From Myxococcales bacterium (lineage in GTDB: Bacteria; Myxococcota_A; UBA9160; UBA4427): a stretch of DNA of 64,000 nucleotides. Below, piece by piece: positions 3,957-11,722 of this stretch. The position numbers and the translations under genes were made by a program. The notes beneath the pieces were generated by a model that was given only the letters and a program-made list of their open reading frames with translations, did not search any database and was not told the DNA's origin. The stretch lies in assembly GCA_012959805.1 (NCBI GenBank), contig DUCN01000127.1, positions 1-64,000 of the forward strand, given 5' to 3'. How positions within the stretch are numbered: position 1 is the first letter of the stretch; every line of letters starts with the position of its first letter.

Positions 3957-4114
3957 GCGCAGTGATTCCGAGAAGCGGTCGGGGCACCCTGGATCCCTGG
4001 CCATGACCTCGGGATTCCACCCCAAGCCTGATTTCCCCTCTCAATCCCCCTGTGGAATACGCCGATGACGCAAGTAGATGGCAGCCGCGAGACGGCCGCG
4101 CGGGGGACTTTGAA

Positions 4115-5419
4115 ATGTGGAATGAAATGAATGCGTCGCATCGGCGAACGACGGACCGGAGTCCGATTCGGTCGCTCCGATTCGGCCGATCTCTCCTCCT
4201 GATGCTGCTTCTTGCGAGTCTGTCGAGCGTCATGGGCTGCAACGAAATCGGCGCGAGCCGCGATGGCGACGCTTCAAACGGCGAACCGTCGCCAGCGCTT
4301 CTCAGTCGTGCGGAGTCGGGTGAGGTCGAAGCACAGCTGGCCGTTGGGCTGTTCTACAGAAACGCAGCAAGCGCTTCCGAAACCTCGAAGCGCGCGCGTG
4401 ACGAATCCGAGGCGCTTCGCTGGTTCACGCTGGCAGCCGATCAAGGACTGGCGACCGCCCAATTCGAGCTCGGCCTGATGCTGGTCACCGCCGAAGGTGT
4501 GAATCAGAATTTCGTCGAAGGTCGCCGCTGGCTTTCGCGTGCGGGCGAAGCAGGACACGCGCCTGCCCTTTTCATGTTAGGCGATCTCTCGAAGCGAGGA
4601 GACGGTGGGCCTCCGAATCCTGTGATGGCAGTGGCGCTCTGGCATCGTGCCGCAGAACTCGGACATAGCGGCGCATTCCATCGTCTCGGCCAGGCTCATG
4701 AAGAAGGCCTCGGCGTCGACCCCGATGTGGAGTCGGCAATTGGATTCTACCGAGAGGCCTCTCTGCTCGGTTATATGATTTCTCAATATCGGCTTGCCGT
4801 GATCTACGACGAAGGTCTTCTGATGCCGCGCGACGCTTCGGAGGCCGTGCGTTTCTATCGTCTGGCCGGCGAGCAGAGTTACGCGCCTGCCCAGGCACAG
4901 CTGGGTTACCTGTATGCGCGAGGCGACGGCGTCATTCAGCGCTATGACGAAGCACTTCGATGGAGTCGAATGGCCGCGGAGCAGGGCAATGCGGACGGCT
5001 GCAATAATCTCGCGGTTCTTTATCTCAAGGGACTCGGTGTCGAGCAGAGTTTCGACGACGCGCTTCGCTGGTATCGACTGGCCGCCCAACATCAGCATCC
5101 CGGCGCCCAGAACATGCTCGGAACGCTCTATCTGACGGGTCAGGGCGTCGATGTCGATCCGAATGAGGCCGAACATTGGTGGCGCATGGCGGCGGAGCAG
5201 GGCTACGCATCGGCGCAATATAATCTGGGCGGCATGTACTCGCGAAAGATTTCAACGTCGCTGCTTCGCGAAGAGGCACTCGATTGGTTGGGCCGAGCCG
5301 CGGAGCAGGGCCATACGAGTGCGGCCCGGGAACTCGCAGAAGTTCAAGCGATGGTGGCAACGACGACAGCCCAGAAGGTTGAAGACGCCGCGATCGAGTC
5401 GGCGCAGACTACCCTCTAG
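4115..5419 (+). CDS. Sel1-repeat lipoprotein
   Basis: This is a 434-residue envelope protein of Sel1-like (TPR-related) repeats. The N-terminus has a hydrophobic stretch ending in SSVMGC, a lipobox, so it is probably lipidated and anchored to a membrane. After that come about ten repeats of roughly 36 residues with the pattern A-x(6)-W-x(3)-A-x(2)-G-x(2)-A-Q-x(2)-LG-x-(M/L)Y-x-G. Such arrays are protein-interaction scaffolds, often in envelope or regulatory functions. The start at 4115 has a GGGGGA element upstream; a longer frame begins at 4052. No partner gene is adjacent. Confidence 0.85.
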   Translation: MWNEMNASHRRTTDRSPIRSLRFGRSLLLMLLLASLSSVMGCNEIGASRDGDASNGEPSPALLSRAESGEVEAQLAVGLFYRNAASASETSKRARDESEALRWFTLAADQGLATAQFELGLMLVTAEGVNQNFVEGRRWLSRAGEAGHAPALFMLGDLSKRGDGGPPNPVMAVALWHRAAELGHSGAFHRLGQAHEEGLGVDPDVESAIGFYREASLLGYMISQYRLAVIYDEGLLMPRDASEAVRFYRLAGEQSYAPAQAQLGYLYARGDGVIQRYDEALRWSRMAAEQGNADGCNNLAVLYLKGLGVEQSFDDALRWYRLAAQHQHPGAQNMLGTLYLTGQGVDVDPNEAEHWWRMAAEQGYASAQYNLGGMYSRKISTSLLREEALDWLGRAAEQGHTSAARELAEVQAMVATTTAQKVEDAAIESAQTTL

Positions 5420-5619: not shown

Positions 5620-6447
5620 CTAAAGCGGTCCGGATCTCTCTCGGTCCCGATCGGACCTCGGATTGCTGCGCCGCAGGACCCAATAACGGTTGAGATCGGC
5701 TTGGGCGCCATCCGAACGGTATTCGGCCAGAGAATCGAGCCCGAGCAGTTCCGGCCAGGAGTTGAATTCCGCGTCGCTCACCTGGTGGCAGTAGCGAGGC
5801 GGCTGAGTCGGGTCATCTCCGAAGCGCAGAAGTGCGTCACCGGCTTCGAGTTCCGACTCCTCGATCGGCGCACCGAGCACTGGCCCGAGATCCGACCAGG
5901 CGACCTGTCGGCGGGCGAAGCGCGGCCGGCCAGCGAACTGCCAGCTGGCCAGCGCCAGAATCCCGCCCTTCGCCAGACGCCGAGTCGCGGCTTCGAGCAG
6001 GCTCCTTCGCCAGTCGCTCCCCGGGACATGGTGCAGCACGCCCATGATGACAATCAGGTCGAAGGGGCCATCCGGGAGATCATCACCCGGAGACTCCGAG
6101 GCCAGGAAATCCTGCTTCGTGAGACGCCAATTCTGGCTCGGCAGATCCCTTAAGCGCGTGCGTGCGGAGTCGAGGAGGCCCGCGTTCGCGTCGATGCCCG
6201 TGTAGTCGGCGGGCACGCCGGCCTCCACCAGGAAGCGCAAAAACCGAGCATTCCCGCAGCCGATATCGAGAACCCGTTGCGGGCTGGGGGCCGTATCGAT
6301 CGTAGCCGCGGGGGCCGGAAGCAGTTCCGAGAGGCGCTGCCAGCCCGGCCAAGGCTGATGACCGCGACTGGCGTCGAAGGCATCCGCATGGGCAAGATAG
6401 AAGGCCTTTGAGAGCGCGAGGAGTTGGAGGCGGGTTTGCGGGTGCAT
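5620..6447 (-). CDS. Trm9-like tRNA wobble-uridine methyltransferase
   Basis: This is a class I SAM-dependent methyltransferase of 275 residues. Motif I is VLDIGCGNARFL; the acidic motif II is TGIDANAG; motif IV is FDLIVIMGVLHHVPG. Before motif I, the segment FDASRGHQPWPGW matches the FxxTRxxPWP signature of Trm9/ALKBH8 methyltransferases, which methylate cm5U34 to mcm5U34 in tRNA. The C-terminal GDALLRFG and RYCHQVSDAEF stretches also fit that family. It is transcribed divergently from the elp3 homolog 157 bases away, whose product would supply the substrate. The start (6447) was chosen because upstream sequence is not protein-like. No Trm112-like partner is seen. The function is inferred. 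Confidence 0.75.
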   Translation of the reverse strand: MHPQTRLQLLALSKAFYLAHADAFDASRGHQPWPGWQRLSELLPAPAATIDTAPSPQRVLDIGCGNARFLRFLVEAGVPADYTGIDANAGLLDSARTRLRDLPSQNWRLTKQDFLASESPGDDLPDGPFDLIVIMGVLHHVPGSDWRRSLLEAATRRLAKGGILALASWQFAGRPRFARRQVAWSDLGPVLGAPIEESELEAGDALLRFGDDPTQPPRYCHQVSDAEFNSWPELLGLDSLAEYRSDGAQADLNRYWVLRRSNPRSDRDRERSGPL

Positions 6448-6604
6448 GACGATCGGGAGCCTAGCTCGCAGGGAGACGTACTCGTGGGGCAGAGAGTGTC
6501 TTTCGGTTGGCGCGGCGATCGTGCGCGAGCGGCCTAGACTCCGCCGGCGAGTACTGGGGAAGCCGGAGCGAGAGAGATCGACGAGAGCATGACTGAGCAC
6601 GGGC

Positions 6605-8467
6605 ATGACTGAAAAATGGAAAGGAACTGAGCAGGCGGAGGCGGCCAGCGATCCGTCGGGCGAGCGCCTGGCCGGACGTTTCCGCGGCCGGGGACCCGAT
6701 CGATTCTTCGATCCACGACCGATGCGCGATTCGCTCTTGCCACTTCTGCGTGCAATCGAGGCCGTACCCGATGAAATCCCGGATCCCCTGTCGGCGGAGG
6801 TCATGGAGCCACTGCTTCGCGAACACGCCAAGCCCGAAGGCGGTTTCTTTTCCCGAAGCCAATTGATCGCGGCCTTTTCGGCCTTTTCGGACGAAGCCGA
6901 TTTTCGTTTCGATGAGGCCCGATTTCGCCGACGTGTTCAGCGTCGACCCGTTCGGACGCAGAGTGGCGTCACGCCGCTTACGGTTTTGACCAAGCCCTTC
7001 CCCTGTCCCGGGAAATGCATCTTCTGTCCCAATGATGTGCGCATGCCGAAGAGTTATCTCTCGGACGAGCCTGGGGCCCAGCGCGCCGCCAATAATCATT
7101 TCGATCCCTACCTGCAGACCTGGAATCGTCTCGCGGCCTTCGATGCGACGGGGCATCCCACGGACAAGATCGAATTGATCGTATTAGGCGGAACCTGGTC
7201 CTTCTACCCACACGCCTATCAGATCTATTTCGTCGCGCGTTGCCTGGAGGCGATGAACGACTTCGGAGCTGGACGCGATGGGCGAGATGCATGTCGCCCG
7301 ACCACGCCGAATTTCGAAGAGATCGATGCCGAGATTCTAGGCGAGGCCTTTCGCAACAACCCATACAACAAGACGGTGACGAAATTCCTGCAAGACAAAC
7401 AGGATGGTTTACTCGTTCTTCCCGACGAAGAATCTGACTGGGCAAGACTCTTCCGCGCTCAGCAGGCCAATGAAGCTGCCGGCGCTCGATGTGTCGGGCT
7501 GGTTCTCGAGACGCGACCGGATCATGTCGACGAAGCCGAAGTCATCCGCCTCCGCCGTCTCGGCGCGACGAAAGTCCAACTCGGCGTGCAGAGTCTCGAC
7601 GATCGCATCTTGTCGATGAATCGTCGCGGTCATGATGTCGCCGCCACAAGACGCGCGTTCGATGTTCTGCGCCGAGCAGGTTTCAAGCTCCACGCCCACT
7701 GGATGGCAAATCTATTGGGGGCGACGCCGGCTGGCGACCGCGAGGATTTTCGGCGCCTCTTCGAAGATCCATCCTTTCGCCCGGATGAGCTCAAGATTTA
7801 CCCCTGTAGCCTGATCGAGACCGCGGAACTGATGGGGCCCTGGAAACGGGGCGAGTGGTCGCCCTATGACGACGCGGAGTTACTCGAAGTCGTGGCCGAC
7901 GCGATGCCGCGGGTTCCGCGCTGGTGTCGGGTGACGCGGGTCATTCGAGATATTTCTTCGGACGACATTGTGGCCGGCAACAAGCGAACCAACTTTCGCC
8001 AGATCGCCGAGGCCGAGATCTCGCGTCGTGGCGATCCGCTCGTGGAGATTCGTCATCGGGAGATTCGGGGTGAGGCTTTCGAAGCGGCCGCCCTCGAACT
8101 CGTTGAAACCGAGTTCGAGACCGAATGTGGTCGCGAGATTTTTCTCGAATTGGTGACGACCGAAGATCGGATCGTCGGATTCTTGCGGCTGTGTCTGCCG
8201 AAGAATTCGTCGTTTATCGACGAGTTGGGAACAAATGCCCTCGTGCGCGAACTACACGTCTATGGCGGATCGGTTCAGATAGGCGCTGCATCGGGCGGTC
8301 GCGCCCAACACCGCGGTTTAGGCGCGCGGCTCCTCCAAGCGGCCCAATCGAGTGCACGCGAGGCCGGGTATCCGAAGCTCTCGGTCATTTCCGCTATCGG
8401 AACGCGTGGGTATTACCGGCAGCAGGGCTTCATCGACGGCGAACTCTATCAGCACCTAACGGTCTGA
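6605..8467 (+). CDS. elp3: bacterial Elp3 (radical SAM and GNAT domains)
   Basis: This 620-residue protein has the full Elongator catalytic-subunit architecture. The radical-SAM domain carries its cluster cysteines at about 134, 138 and 141 in CPGKCIFCPNDVRMPKSYLS, the Elp3 signature. LETRPDHVDE and LGVQSLDD follow. Further on are KIYPCSLIETAELMGPWKRGEW and RVTRVIRDISSDDIVAGNKRTN. The C-terminal GNAT domain has the acetyl-CoA loop QHRGLGARLL and ends in GYYRQQGF. Elp3 uses acetyl-CoA and SAM to form cm5U34 on tRNA. The rest of eukaryotic Elongator is absent, as in other bacteria and archaea with Elp3. The Trm9-like gene diverges from it. Confidence 0.93.
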   Translation: MTEKWKGTEQAEAASDPSGERLAGRFRGRGPDRFFDPRPMRDSLLPLLRAIEAVPDEIPDPLSAEVMEPLLREHAKPEGGFFSRSQLIAAFSAFSDEADFRFDEARFRRRVQRRPVRTQSGVTPLTVLTKPFPCPGKCIFCPNDVRMPKSYLSDEPGAQRAANNHFDPYLQTWNRLAAFDATGHPTDKIELIVLGGTWSFYPHAYQIYFVARCLEAMNDFGAGRDGRDACRPTTPNFEEIDAEILGEAFRNNPYNKTVTKFLQDKQDGLLVLPDEESDWARLFRAQQANEAAGARCVGLVLETRPDHVDEAEVIRLRRLGATKVQLGVQSLDDRILSMNRRGHDVAATRRAFDVLRRAGFKLHAHWMANLLGATPAGDREDFRRLFEDPSFRPDELKIYPCSLIETAELMGPWKRGEWSPYDDAELLEVVADAMPRVPRWCRVTRVIRDISSDDIVAGNKRTNFRQIAEAEISRRGDPLVEIRHREIRGEAFEAAALELVETEFETECGREIFLELVTTEDRIVGFLRLCLPKNSSFIDELGTNALVRELHVYGGSVQIGAASGGRAQHRGLGARLLQAAQSSAREAGYPKLSVISAIGTRGYYRQQGFIDGELYQHLTV

Positions 8468-8512: not shown

Positions 8513-10084
8513 TCAGCCCGCCCGCTTGAGCGGAACAAAGAGCGTGTTCGCCCCACGACGCACCAGGACGAGAATCTTCTTCTTGTCCTTCGAATCATTC
8601 AGGACATTCGCCAAGTCACCGACGCTGTTGATATTCTGGCGATCGAGTTCGATGATGATGTCGCCTCTTCGGATGCCGGCTTCGGCGGCGGGGCCACCGG
8701 GTGCGACTTCGGTGACGATGACGCCTTGCGCTTCTTCGAGTCCGAGTTCCTGGGCCAACTCGTCTGTCAGGTTCTGGGCACGAAGACCGAGTGCTTCGGC
8801 GCCGTCATTCTTCTCCGGGGTGTGGCTCACGACCTGATCCGGATCGTCGAGGCGGCCGATCTGAATCCTGAAGCTCTTGTGCTTGCCTTCCCGAATCACG
8901 ACGACCTTGGCCTTGGTGTCGACGGGCGTGTTCGCCACGACGATGGGAAGGTCATTCCATCGATTGATGGCTTCACCATTGAACTCGATGATGATGTCAC
9001 CGGTCTTGATGCCGCCTTTTTCCGCCGGCGTATTAGGCAGGACTTGAGAGACCAGGGCGCCGCTCGCTTCGTCGAGCTGGAAATGGTCCGCGATTTCGTT
9101 GGTGACGTTTTGGATCGAGACGCCGAGCCAGCCGCGGGTCACGTGACCTTCTGCTCGAAGCTGGGGCAGAATCTGCTTGGCCTGATTGATTGGGACCGAA
9201 AAGCCGATCGTGTTGGCGCCGCTTCGAATGGCGGTGTTGATTCCGATGACTCGACCATGGAGATCGATCAGGGGGCCGCCGGAATTGCCGGGATTGATCG
9301 CGGCGTCGGTTTGAATGAAATCTTCGTAGAGCTTGGGGTCCATGACGTCGCGACGATTCTTCGCGGAGACGATGCCCGCTGTCACGGTGTGGGCTAGACC
9401 GAAGGGGTTGCCGATCGCCACGACCCAGTCGCCCGGCCGGACGATTTCGGAGTCGCCGAGTGCGATGGTGTCGAGGGCGTTCTGGCCGGGGTCGACCTTG
9501 AGCAGGGCGATGTCGGTCTTCGGATCGCGGCCGACGATCTCGGCTTCGAGTTCAGTGCCGTCGAGGAAGCGCACGATGATCTCATCCATGTCGGCGACCA
9601 CATGGTTGTTCGTCACGATATAACCGTCGGGTGAGATGACAAAACCGCTGCCCTCTCCGCTGGTATGGCGTTCCTGTGGCATGCTGGGCTGATGGAATGG
9701 GCTCCCTCCGAAGAAGCCGGGAGGGAAGACACGCTGGTTCGTTGCGACGATGCCGGATGTCTGAATGCTGACGACGGCGGGTGCGACGCGTTCGGCCAAG
9801 TCCGCAAAGCTGGTCGGAATCCCGATCGGCTGTGTCTCCGGGATTTCGCTTTCAGAACGCCAGAAGGTCTCGCGTTCGGCGTGCGTTCCGCTTTTTCCCT
9901 CTGATGAGTCACCAAAGAAATCCAGAGCTTGTGCAGACTCCGGTCCGAAGATCGAAATCGAAGCAAGGCCTCTCATGAAACCGTGGTGGCCGAGGTCGCC
10001 GACTCCAGAGTCGAACCCTAGGTTTCCGCCGAGACCCAGAAGGGAAAGGACGACGACGGCGGTCGCAATTTGAAAATGTCGCAC
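8513..10084 (-). CDS. periplasmic serine protease, HtrA/DegP type
   Basis: This 523-residue Do-type protease/chaperone degrades misfolded envelope proteins. It has an N-terminal signal-type hydrophobic segment (about 6-20), then a trypsin-like domain with His161 (TNNHVV), Asp191 (PKTDIALLK) and Ser268 (NPGNSGGPL). Two PDZ domains follow, at about 300-390 and 420-515. All catalytic residues are present. A GTG start is preceded by AGGTGA. It follows a second HtrA gene on the same strand with a 52-base gap, so the two are probably co-transcribed. Confidence 0.95.
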   Translation of the reverse strand: MRHFQIATAVVVLSLLGLGGNLGFDSGVGDLGHHGFMRGLASISIFGPESAQALDFFGDSSEGKSGTHAERETFWRSESEIPETQPIGIPTSFADLAERVAPAVVSIQTSGIVATNQRVFPPGFFGGSPFHQPSMPQERHTSGEGSGFVISPDGYIVTNNHVVADMDEIIVRFLDGTELEAEIVGRDPKTDIALLKVDPGQNALDTIALGDSEIVRPGDWVVAIGNPFGLAHTVTAGIVSAKNRRDVMDPKLYEDFIQTDAAINPGNSGGPLIDLHGRVIGINTAIRSGANTIGFSVPINQAKQILPQLRAEGHVTRGWLGVSIQNVTNEIADHFQLDEASGALVSQVLPNTPAEKGGIKTGDIIIEFNGEAINRWNDLPIVVANTPVDTKAKVVVIREGKHKSFRIQIGRLDDPDQVVSHTPEKNDGAEALGLRAQNLTDELAQELGLEEAQGVIVTEVAPGGPAAEAGIRRGDIIIELDRQNINSVGDLANVLNDSKDKKKILVLVRRGANTLFVPLKRAG

Positions 10085-10136: not shown

Positions 10137-11504
10137 CTAGAACAGCGGAAGCGTCAGATGGTATCGGCCGAGTCCTCTCTGCACCACGACGAGTGCGCGT
10201 GTACGGCCACGAAGTCGGGCCACCGCACGCCGAAGGTCTTCGTTCGATGAAAGCGCGACGCCGTTGATGCCGAGCAGGAAGTCCCCCGCCCGAAGGCCGA
10301 GTGTTTCCGCTGCGGAGCCGGCGTTGACATCGGTCACCTCGAAGGCCCGATGAATTTCAGAACGTGTCAGATCGAGCCCAAGCTTTTGGCGCGCGATATT
10401 ATGCACCATGGTCTGGGGCAATTCTTCGGCGACGGCCATGATGGTCTGGGCTTTGCCGTCTCGGTAGAGATTGAGATGGAGTTCCTGATCCGCGGTGAGT
10501 CCCTTGAGCATTTCGAAGAGTTCTTGCGCATTCTTGACCGATCGCCCATCGACTTTGGCGACGATATCCCCACGACGAATGCCCGCCCGCGACGCAGGGC
10601 CATCGGGATTCAGGCGACTGACCAGCACGCCCGTGACCCCGTTGGGCAAGTCGAGAATCTCTCGTAGCGTGGGCGCGATGTCTTGGAATTCGAGACCCAG
10701 CCAGACGGGGTGGACTTCGCCGTAGAGAAGCAGTTCATGAATGACCCGCTTGGCGACATCGATGGGGATGGCAAAACCAATCCCCTGGGCACCGGCAAAG
10801 ATCGCGGTGTTGATTCCGATGAGTTGACCTTCGGCATTCAGTAGAGGACCGCCGGAATTGCCCGGGTTGATCAGGGCGTCGGTCTGTAGGAGTCCGTGGA
10901 TAGTGAAGTCGTTTCCCTGGGACCGGACCGATCGATTCTTGGCGGAGATGACGCCCGTCGTCACGCTATTGGAGAAGCCGAAAGGGTTTCCGATGGCGAT
11001 GACGGGTTCGCCGACCATCAAATCACTCGAGATGCCGGGCTCGGAAAAGGGCAGCATTTCGTCGGTCAAGATTTTGAGGACCGCGAGATCGTTGTTCGGG
11101 TCTGCCCCGACCAACTCCGCTTCGTACTCGCGTCCGTCCGCGATCGTGACGCGTACGCGATCTGCACGAGCGATCACGTGTTCGTTCGTGAGAACATGAC
11201 CTCCGGCGTCGAAAATGACGCCGGAGCCCAGGCTCTGAACGGTCTGGGAGCGTGGCACGAAAAAGTTCTCGAAGAAATTGTCGAAGACGGGATCGACGCC
11301 GGAGCGTCGACGAAAGGGACTCGTGGTCTTGGTAATGCGTTCGGTCGTAATGTTGACGACGCTGGGTCCGACGCTTCGGACGACGTCTACGGCCGCAGTC
11401 TGTCGAAGAAAAGGATCACCCGCGAAGGCCGCTGGCGCGCCTCCCCAAATGATCAGGACCAGCGCGACGAGCGCCCAATATTGTCGATCCAGCTTCATAT
11501 TCAT
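10137..11504 (-). CDS. second HtrA/Do-type serine protease
   Basis: This 455-residue periplasmic HtrA paralog sits upstream of the other. A signal peptide is clear (hydrophobic 10-22, likely cut after PAAFA). The catalytic triad is His109 (TNEHVI), Asp139 (PNNDLAVLK) and Ser217 (NPGNSGGPL). Two PDZ-like domains follow. Between the signal peptide and the protease core lies an arginine- and phenylalanine-rich loop (about 60-85), which in this family is the LA-loop region. An ATG at 11504 or 11498 is the likely start; the longer frame to 11645 lacks a signal peptide at its N-terminus. The two proteases are diverged, not a recent duplication. Confidence 0.93.
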   Translation of the reverse strand: MNMKLDRQYWALVALVLIIWGGAPAAFAGDPFLRQTAAVDVVRSVGPSVVNITTERITKTTSPFRRRSGVDPVFDNFFENFFVPRSQTVQSLGSGVIFDAGGHVLTNEHVIARADRVRVTIADGREYEAELVGADPNNDLAVLKILTDEMLPFSEPGISSDLMVGEPVIAIGNPFGFSNSVTTGVISAKNRSVRSQGNDFTIHGLLQTDALINPGNSGGPLLNAEGQLIGINTAIFAGAQGIGFAIPIDVAKRVIHELLLYGEVHPVWLGLEFQDIAPTLREILDLPNGVTGVLVSRLNPDGPASRAGIRRGDIVAKVDGRSVKNAQELFEMLKGLTADQELHLNLYRDGKAQTIMAVAEELPQTMVHNIARQKLGLDLTRSEIHRAFEVTDVNAGSAAETLGLRAGDFLLGINGVALSSNEDLRRAVARLRGRTRALVVVQRGLGRYHLTLPLF

Positions 11505-11722
11505 TCCGTCATCGCTCCATCCCGGGGGCGCACCGCGGATCGAGCACACATCATCGCATCGGCGACCACCCGGCAAGGTTCTTCGGTCGGTCTGCACACT
11601 CTGAAGCCGCTCGAGCTTCTCCGGTTCACGCGAACTAGGGCTCAATCGGCTCGTATTCTACCCCTCGCAGAGAAAATGCCCGCTGCTTGCCGGCCAAGAT
11701 GTCCAATGGACGCCGCAATGAG

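Follow-up and report, generated by a model that had tools for sequence, protein, structure and literature searches.

The two divergent genes at positions 5620 to 8467 of the window (the whole stretch of 64,000 nucleotides analyzed here) probably constitute, with a likelihood that we put at roughly three in four, a minimal bacterial route for wobble uridine modification, U34 to cm5U34 to mcm5U34, replacing MnmE/MnmG; the chemistry is inferred, and no tRNA was measured. The original prediction of such a two-gene pathway is supported at the sequence level by the homologies of both proteins, their conserved residues, the strict co-occurrence and head-to-head synteny of the genes, and the absence of MnmG and MnmE, all of which we observed directly. 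Which reactions take place, and on which tRNAs, remains inferred, without nucleoside, biochemical, or mass-spectrometric data.

These results suggest that bacteria lacking MnmE/MnmG but carrying Elp3 head to head with a relative of Trm9/ALKBH8 decode with mcm5U. To our knowledge, this nucleoside is otherwise known from eukaryotes and has been proposed for some archaea. The pair supplies bacterial Elp3 with a partner and a predicted product, would explain how U34 modification remains possible in a lineage that lacks MnmEG, and gives structural work and enzymology a two-protein, minimal Elongator/ALKBH8 route.

The divergent gene pair and its Elp3

The two genes had been described as divergent and 157 bases apart, and their positions bear this out:

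5620..6447, minus strand: Trm9-like class I SAM methyltransferase, 275 amino acids, predicted tRNA (cm5U34) carboxyl methyltransferase
6448..6604, no strand: intergenic region between both start codons, divergent, 157 bases
6605..8467, plus strand: Elp3 with radical SAM and GNAT (KAT) domains, 620 amino acids (ATG at 6605, stop at 8467)

The mechanical open reading frame of the methyltransferase is longer (403 amino acids), opening at a TTG at 6831 inside Elp3. Since the homologues start at the position of MHPQTR, we adopted the shorter start (M6447), and the gene is best placed from the ATG at 6447 to the stop at 5620. No match to a sigma-70-type promoter was found in the 157 bases between the genes. 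As read by eye from the translations, the methyltransferase adjoins a Sel1-repeat-like protein (4052-5419, plus strand), and two neighboring genes for DegP/HtrA-like proteases lie at 8513-10084 and 10137-11645, both on the minus strand. A Sel1 match (Pfam) was seen again next to the methyltransferase in a distant genome (G190, L115:7623-8288), possibly by coincidence.

The claim that Elp3 is intact held in all its parts: the 620-residue frame has no internal stop, the cysteines stand exactly at positions 134, 138, and 141, and GNAT-type matches were obtained at the C terminus. The protein scored 453.5 bits against TIGR01211 (cutoff, 350), while the matches of Pfam Acetyltransf_1/_10 to the C-terminal domain were slightly under the cutoff. 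The PDB search retrieved Elp3 chains only (Dehalococcoides, Methanocaldococcus infernus, and Elongator), with DmcElp3 (5l7j) at the top (E value, 1.2e-93). Its radical SAM cysteines and acetyl-CoA domain are placed as follows:

7004..7027, plus strand: radical SAM cysteines C134, C138, and C141 (CPGKCIFC), without exception among the 42 homologues of Elp3 from the phylum
8105..8437, plus strand: GNAT/KAT acetyl-CoA domain, residues ca. 501 to 611, spanned by TIGR01211 and by the alignment with DmcElp3 (5l7j)

The acetyl-CoA/tRNA catalytic residues of importance in MinElp3 are K150, K266, Q461, and Y517 (PMC6367351), which align with K188, K361, E549, and Y603 of the window Elp3. Both lysines are invariant among the 42 homologues from the phylum. 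The glutamate at the Q461 position is found likewise in the alignment of DmcElp3, and position 603, a tyrosine in the window, is either tyrosine or tryptophan among the relatives. Compared with DmcElp3, the radical SAM domain of the window protein contains an additional stretch of ca. 55 residues, and the zinc-binding cysteines in the linker of the aligned DmcElp3 have no counterpart (8013-8075 in the window); eukaryotic Elp3 is likewise without them (PMC6367351). Within the radical SAM domain, residues ca. 224 to 281 (7274-7447) form a lineage-typical stretch of ca. 30 to 60 residues with a recurring YN-x-x-V motif, which is almost missing in three genomes (G132, G253, and G244). That this Elp3 makes cm5U34 is inferred from its family membership and these residues.

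Relationship of the methyltransferase to Trm9

Searches with the single methyltransferase sequence returned generic class I methyltransferases only and were not decisive for Trm9. We therefore relied on two profiles, A1 (29 homologues) and A2 (32 homologues, with more divergent members). The best PDB match of both was Yarrowia Trm9 (5cm2, chain Z with A1), at 52.5 bits for A1 (E value, 3.4e-13; runner-up chain, 42.0) and 56.1 bits for A2 (E value, 2.7e-14; runner-up chain, 46.3), so that Trm9 was ca. 10 bits ahead of every other chain in both cases. The methyltransferase thus groups with Trm9 and not with UbiE/UbiG or small-molecule enzymes. The match to 5cm2 starts at TRxxPWP, the motif already noticed in the original prediction, which had reported a Trm9/ALKBH8 signature ahead of SAM motif I; this signature, FDASRGHQPWPGW, indeed occupies residues 24 to 36, in front of VLDIGCGN. 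Along similar lines, hhalign gave 98% for the methyltransferase profile against yeast Trm9. Used directly as a pairwise query, yeast Trm9 recovered the neighbor of Elp3 in many relatives (best, 38.7 bits) and nothing in the window's own genome at an E value of ≤0.001. The AlphaFold model was confident (pLDDT, 91), but Foldseek placed Trm9 only eleventh among many methyltransferases, and since it failed to single out Trm9, the structural comparison does not decide the matter.

Other identities were considered. UbiG reached 38.6 to 42.3 bits with the profiles, below the values for Trm9, and CmoB-type enzymes reached only 14.6 to 19.7 bits. No named NCBIfam or Pfam family could be assigned, given that just general models fit (Methyltransf_12 and _25 as the best in Pfam) and the NCBIfam matches were far under their cutoffs. 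A PADLOC match to mad2 was restricted to the SAM domain and was treated as generic. Scanning genome contigs with the single methyltransferase protein yielded just one archaeal methyltransferase, which is unrelated and lies in a glycosylation-type locus without Elp3, and the plasmid search gave no relative of the methyltransferase and a sole, haloarchaeal match for Elp3.

A review written by those who reported the Trm9-Trm112 structure lists R29A, H115A, R241A, Y243A, and N271A as yeast Trm9 mutations that impair both the affinity for tRNA and the activity (PMC5372719). We mapped these positions through three alignments of yeast Trm9 with the 32 homologues; in the yeast reference sequence used, the five mutated residues sit at their published numbers. 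Four of the five are kept in the window protein:

6340..6378, minus strand: N-terminal Trm9/ALKBH8-like motif (residues 24 to 36), in which R28 corresponds to yeast R29 (32/32 homologues)
6031..6033, minus strand: H139, corresponding to yeast H115 (HH motif; 32/32 homologues)
5794..5796, minus strand: R218 in the RYCH motif, corresponding to yeast R241 (RYYH; 32/32 homologues)
5689..5691, minus strand: N253 in the DLNRY motif, corresponding to yeast N271 (DNWW; 31/32 homologues)

The fifth, Y243, is replaced by C220, and a cysteine stands there in most of the 32 homologues. Ten paralogous methyltransferase sequences of the phylum do not keep the equivalents of R29 and N271; H115 is common among them, and an arginine is often aligned with R241, although their C-terminal alignment is uncertain. 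The most divergent member of the pair (G244, L117:6314-7054) has neither a residue equivalent to N271 nor the PWP motif yet lies head to head with Elp3, and it is a candidate for altered specificity.

Eukaryotic Trm9 requires Trm112. The search for a Trm112-like partner came back empty, with no PF03966 match at an E value of ≤0.01 in the window's genome, which is ca. 90% complete, and in many relatives the PF03966 matches were weak and unspecific, with or without the pair. Together, the missing Trm112 and the cysteine at the Y243 position make a different product or mode of working conceivable. Thus, Elp3 might make cm5U34 and the methyltransferase might act on the wobble uridine with a different outcome, such as ncm5U or another ester or derivative, the cysteine (found in nearly all members) reflecting a changed specificity. 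We regard this as rather unlikely. One report describes ncm5U accumulating in yeast trm9 mutants, so that the product of the cm5U branch would not be fixed by Elp3 alone (PMC3110198), and U34 of archaea was judged similar, not identical, to mcm5s2U (PMC2584109). However, the equivalents of R29, H115, R241, and N271 are kept, and carboxyl methylation is the reaction that best fits a SAM methyltransferase whose SAM motif is intact.

Distribution of the pair and of MnmE/MnmG

We surveyed 266 genomes of one phylum only; organisms beyond it were outside the survey. Elp3 was detected in 46 genomes and the methyltransferase in 49, among them all 46 with Elp3. In the three genomes with the methyltransferase only, its gene lies at or near a contig end, in one case (G014) beside an Elp3 truncated by that end. 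The adjacency first seen in the window recurs across the survey, the genes being head to head in 45/45 genomes with both on one contig. The Elp3 and methyltransferase matches are separated by 152 to 508 bases in 42 of these pairs and by 1.4 to 6 kb in the other 3. Since the head-to-head arrangement recurs in every such genome, the pairing is not due to chance. The genomes are related, and the counts of co-occurrence are not independent events. Families with both genes include f1, f3 to f5, f7, f12, f21, f27, f40, f51, and f55. The flanking genes vary by family and locus (CstA, MFS transporter, phosphoesterase, epimerase, kinase, and Clp ATPase), and conservation is therefore confined to the pair itself.

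This distribution bears on the suspicion that the methyltransferase acts on an unrelated substrate (a small molecule, a lipid, or a protein) and is merely a conserved divergent neighbor sharing a promoter region with Elp3. Class I SAM methyltransferases are prone to over-reading, the general Pfam models came out on top with NCBIfam far under its cutoffs, and Foldseek ranked several small-molecule enzymes above Trm9. Nevertheless, we consider this improbable in view of the complete co-occurrence and constant orientation across many families with otherwise changing neighbors, of Trm9 as the top PDB profile match, and of the retention of Trm9-specific residues, most of which the paralogues lack.

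The search for MnmE and MnmG came out as a replacement by the Elp3-Trm9 pair would have it. Among the 61 closest relatives of the window's genome, MnmG was absent from all (0/61), and MnmE gave just partial matches to its G domain, none over the cutoff. In the whole survey, MnmG was present in 139/266 genomes, that is, in 139 of the 220 without Elp3 and in none of the 46 with it (Fisher P value of ca. 1e-17, uncorrected for kinship). When MnmG was searched for again in 15 genomes that carry Elp3 but lie outside the window's family, this time scoring almost every candidate, only weak partial matches were obtained, none over the cutoff. Similarly, no MnmE over the cutoff was obtained in 10 Elp3 genomes outside the order, while it was detected in three controls with MnmG.

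Neither MnmG nor Elp3 was found in ca. 81 of the 266 genomes, several of which are 97 to 100% complete (e.g., G065, G068, G070, and G074). Given that some near-complete relatives have neither, replacement by the pair is not required upon loss of MnmEG; the pair can explain how its bearers cope without MnmEG, yet it does not always accompany that loss. The same relatives imply that U34 C5 may be left unmodified or that another route exists, but the idea that an unrecognized enzyme makes the C5 side chain and that the pair, though real, is limited to a few tRNAs or some conditions seems very improbable to us, as none of the 266 genomes has both MnmG and the pair, which is what is expected of alternatives for one job.

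The window's genome has MnmA (G000:C78), and MnmA was over the cutoff in 53 of the 61 closest genomes, so mcm5s2U is possible. On balance, we lean slightly toward the broader view that MnmEG has been replaced, throughout the lineage and in several distinct families of the phylum, by an Elp3-Trm9 pathway of two genes that does not depend on Trm112; these bacteria would thus decode with mcm5U/mcm5s2U of the eukaryotic type, with MnmA supplying the thiol.

Predicted pathway and known systems

As we picture the Elp3-Trm9 route, Elp3 would first add a carboxymethyl group to C5 of U34 through its [4Fe-4S]/SAM radical and acetyl-CoA, giving cm5U34, and would do so alone, without Elp1, Elp2, or Elp4 to Elp6; archaeal Elp3 works alone in vitro. 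The Trm9-like enzyme would then bind cm5U34 through R28, H139, R218, and N253 and methylate its carboxylate from SAM, giving mcm5U34. From a separate locus, bacterial MnmA may thiolate position 2, which would result in mcm5s2U34 in the tRNAs for Lys, Glu, and Gln.

We found no description of a bacterial Trm9-type partner of Elp3 in the open-licence papers searched, and within that scope it appears to be undescribed; the clustering of Elp3 and Trm9 in archaea is already known. According to a 2017 review, no bacterial genes resembling the Trm112-dependent eukaryotic methyltransferases were detectable (PMC5372719). The only bacterial clade with Elp3 that a 2020 review named is Dehalococcoides, without evidence for cm5U derivatives there (PMC7663514), and a recent paper reports Elp3 in numerous bacteria (PMC13315578).

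The MnmE/MnmG system of most bacteria, which makes cmnm5U34/mnm5U34, shares with the pair the nucleotide position and the presumed decoding role, but its enzymes are unrelated, and it is absent here and was never found alongside the pair. Dehalococcoides mccartyi DmcElp3 belongs to the same Elp3 family; no methyltransferase partner has been described for it in the literature surveyed, and xcm5U had not been directly shown in Dehalococcoides (PMC7663514). The archaeal homologues in Sulfolobus solfataricus and Haloferax volcanii likewise combine a lone Elp3 with a partner of the Trm9 family. Their genes are reported to cluster in S. solfataricus, and mcm5s2U has been proposed for Haloferax (PMC2584109; PMC5372719). 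These systems differ in being archaeal, with archaeal thiolation and without the replacement of MnmEG. Compared with eukaryotic Elongator (Elp3) and Trm9/ALKBH8-Trm112, the window pair is bacterial, has no Trm112 found in its genome, carries a cysteine in place of Y243, and would rely on bacterial MnmA rather than Ncs6/Urm1 for thiolation, whereas both catalytic families are the same, four of the five Trm9 residues are kept, and the best PDB match of the methyltransferase is Trm9 itself (5cm2).
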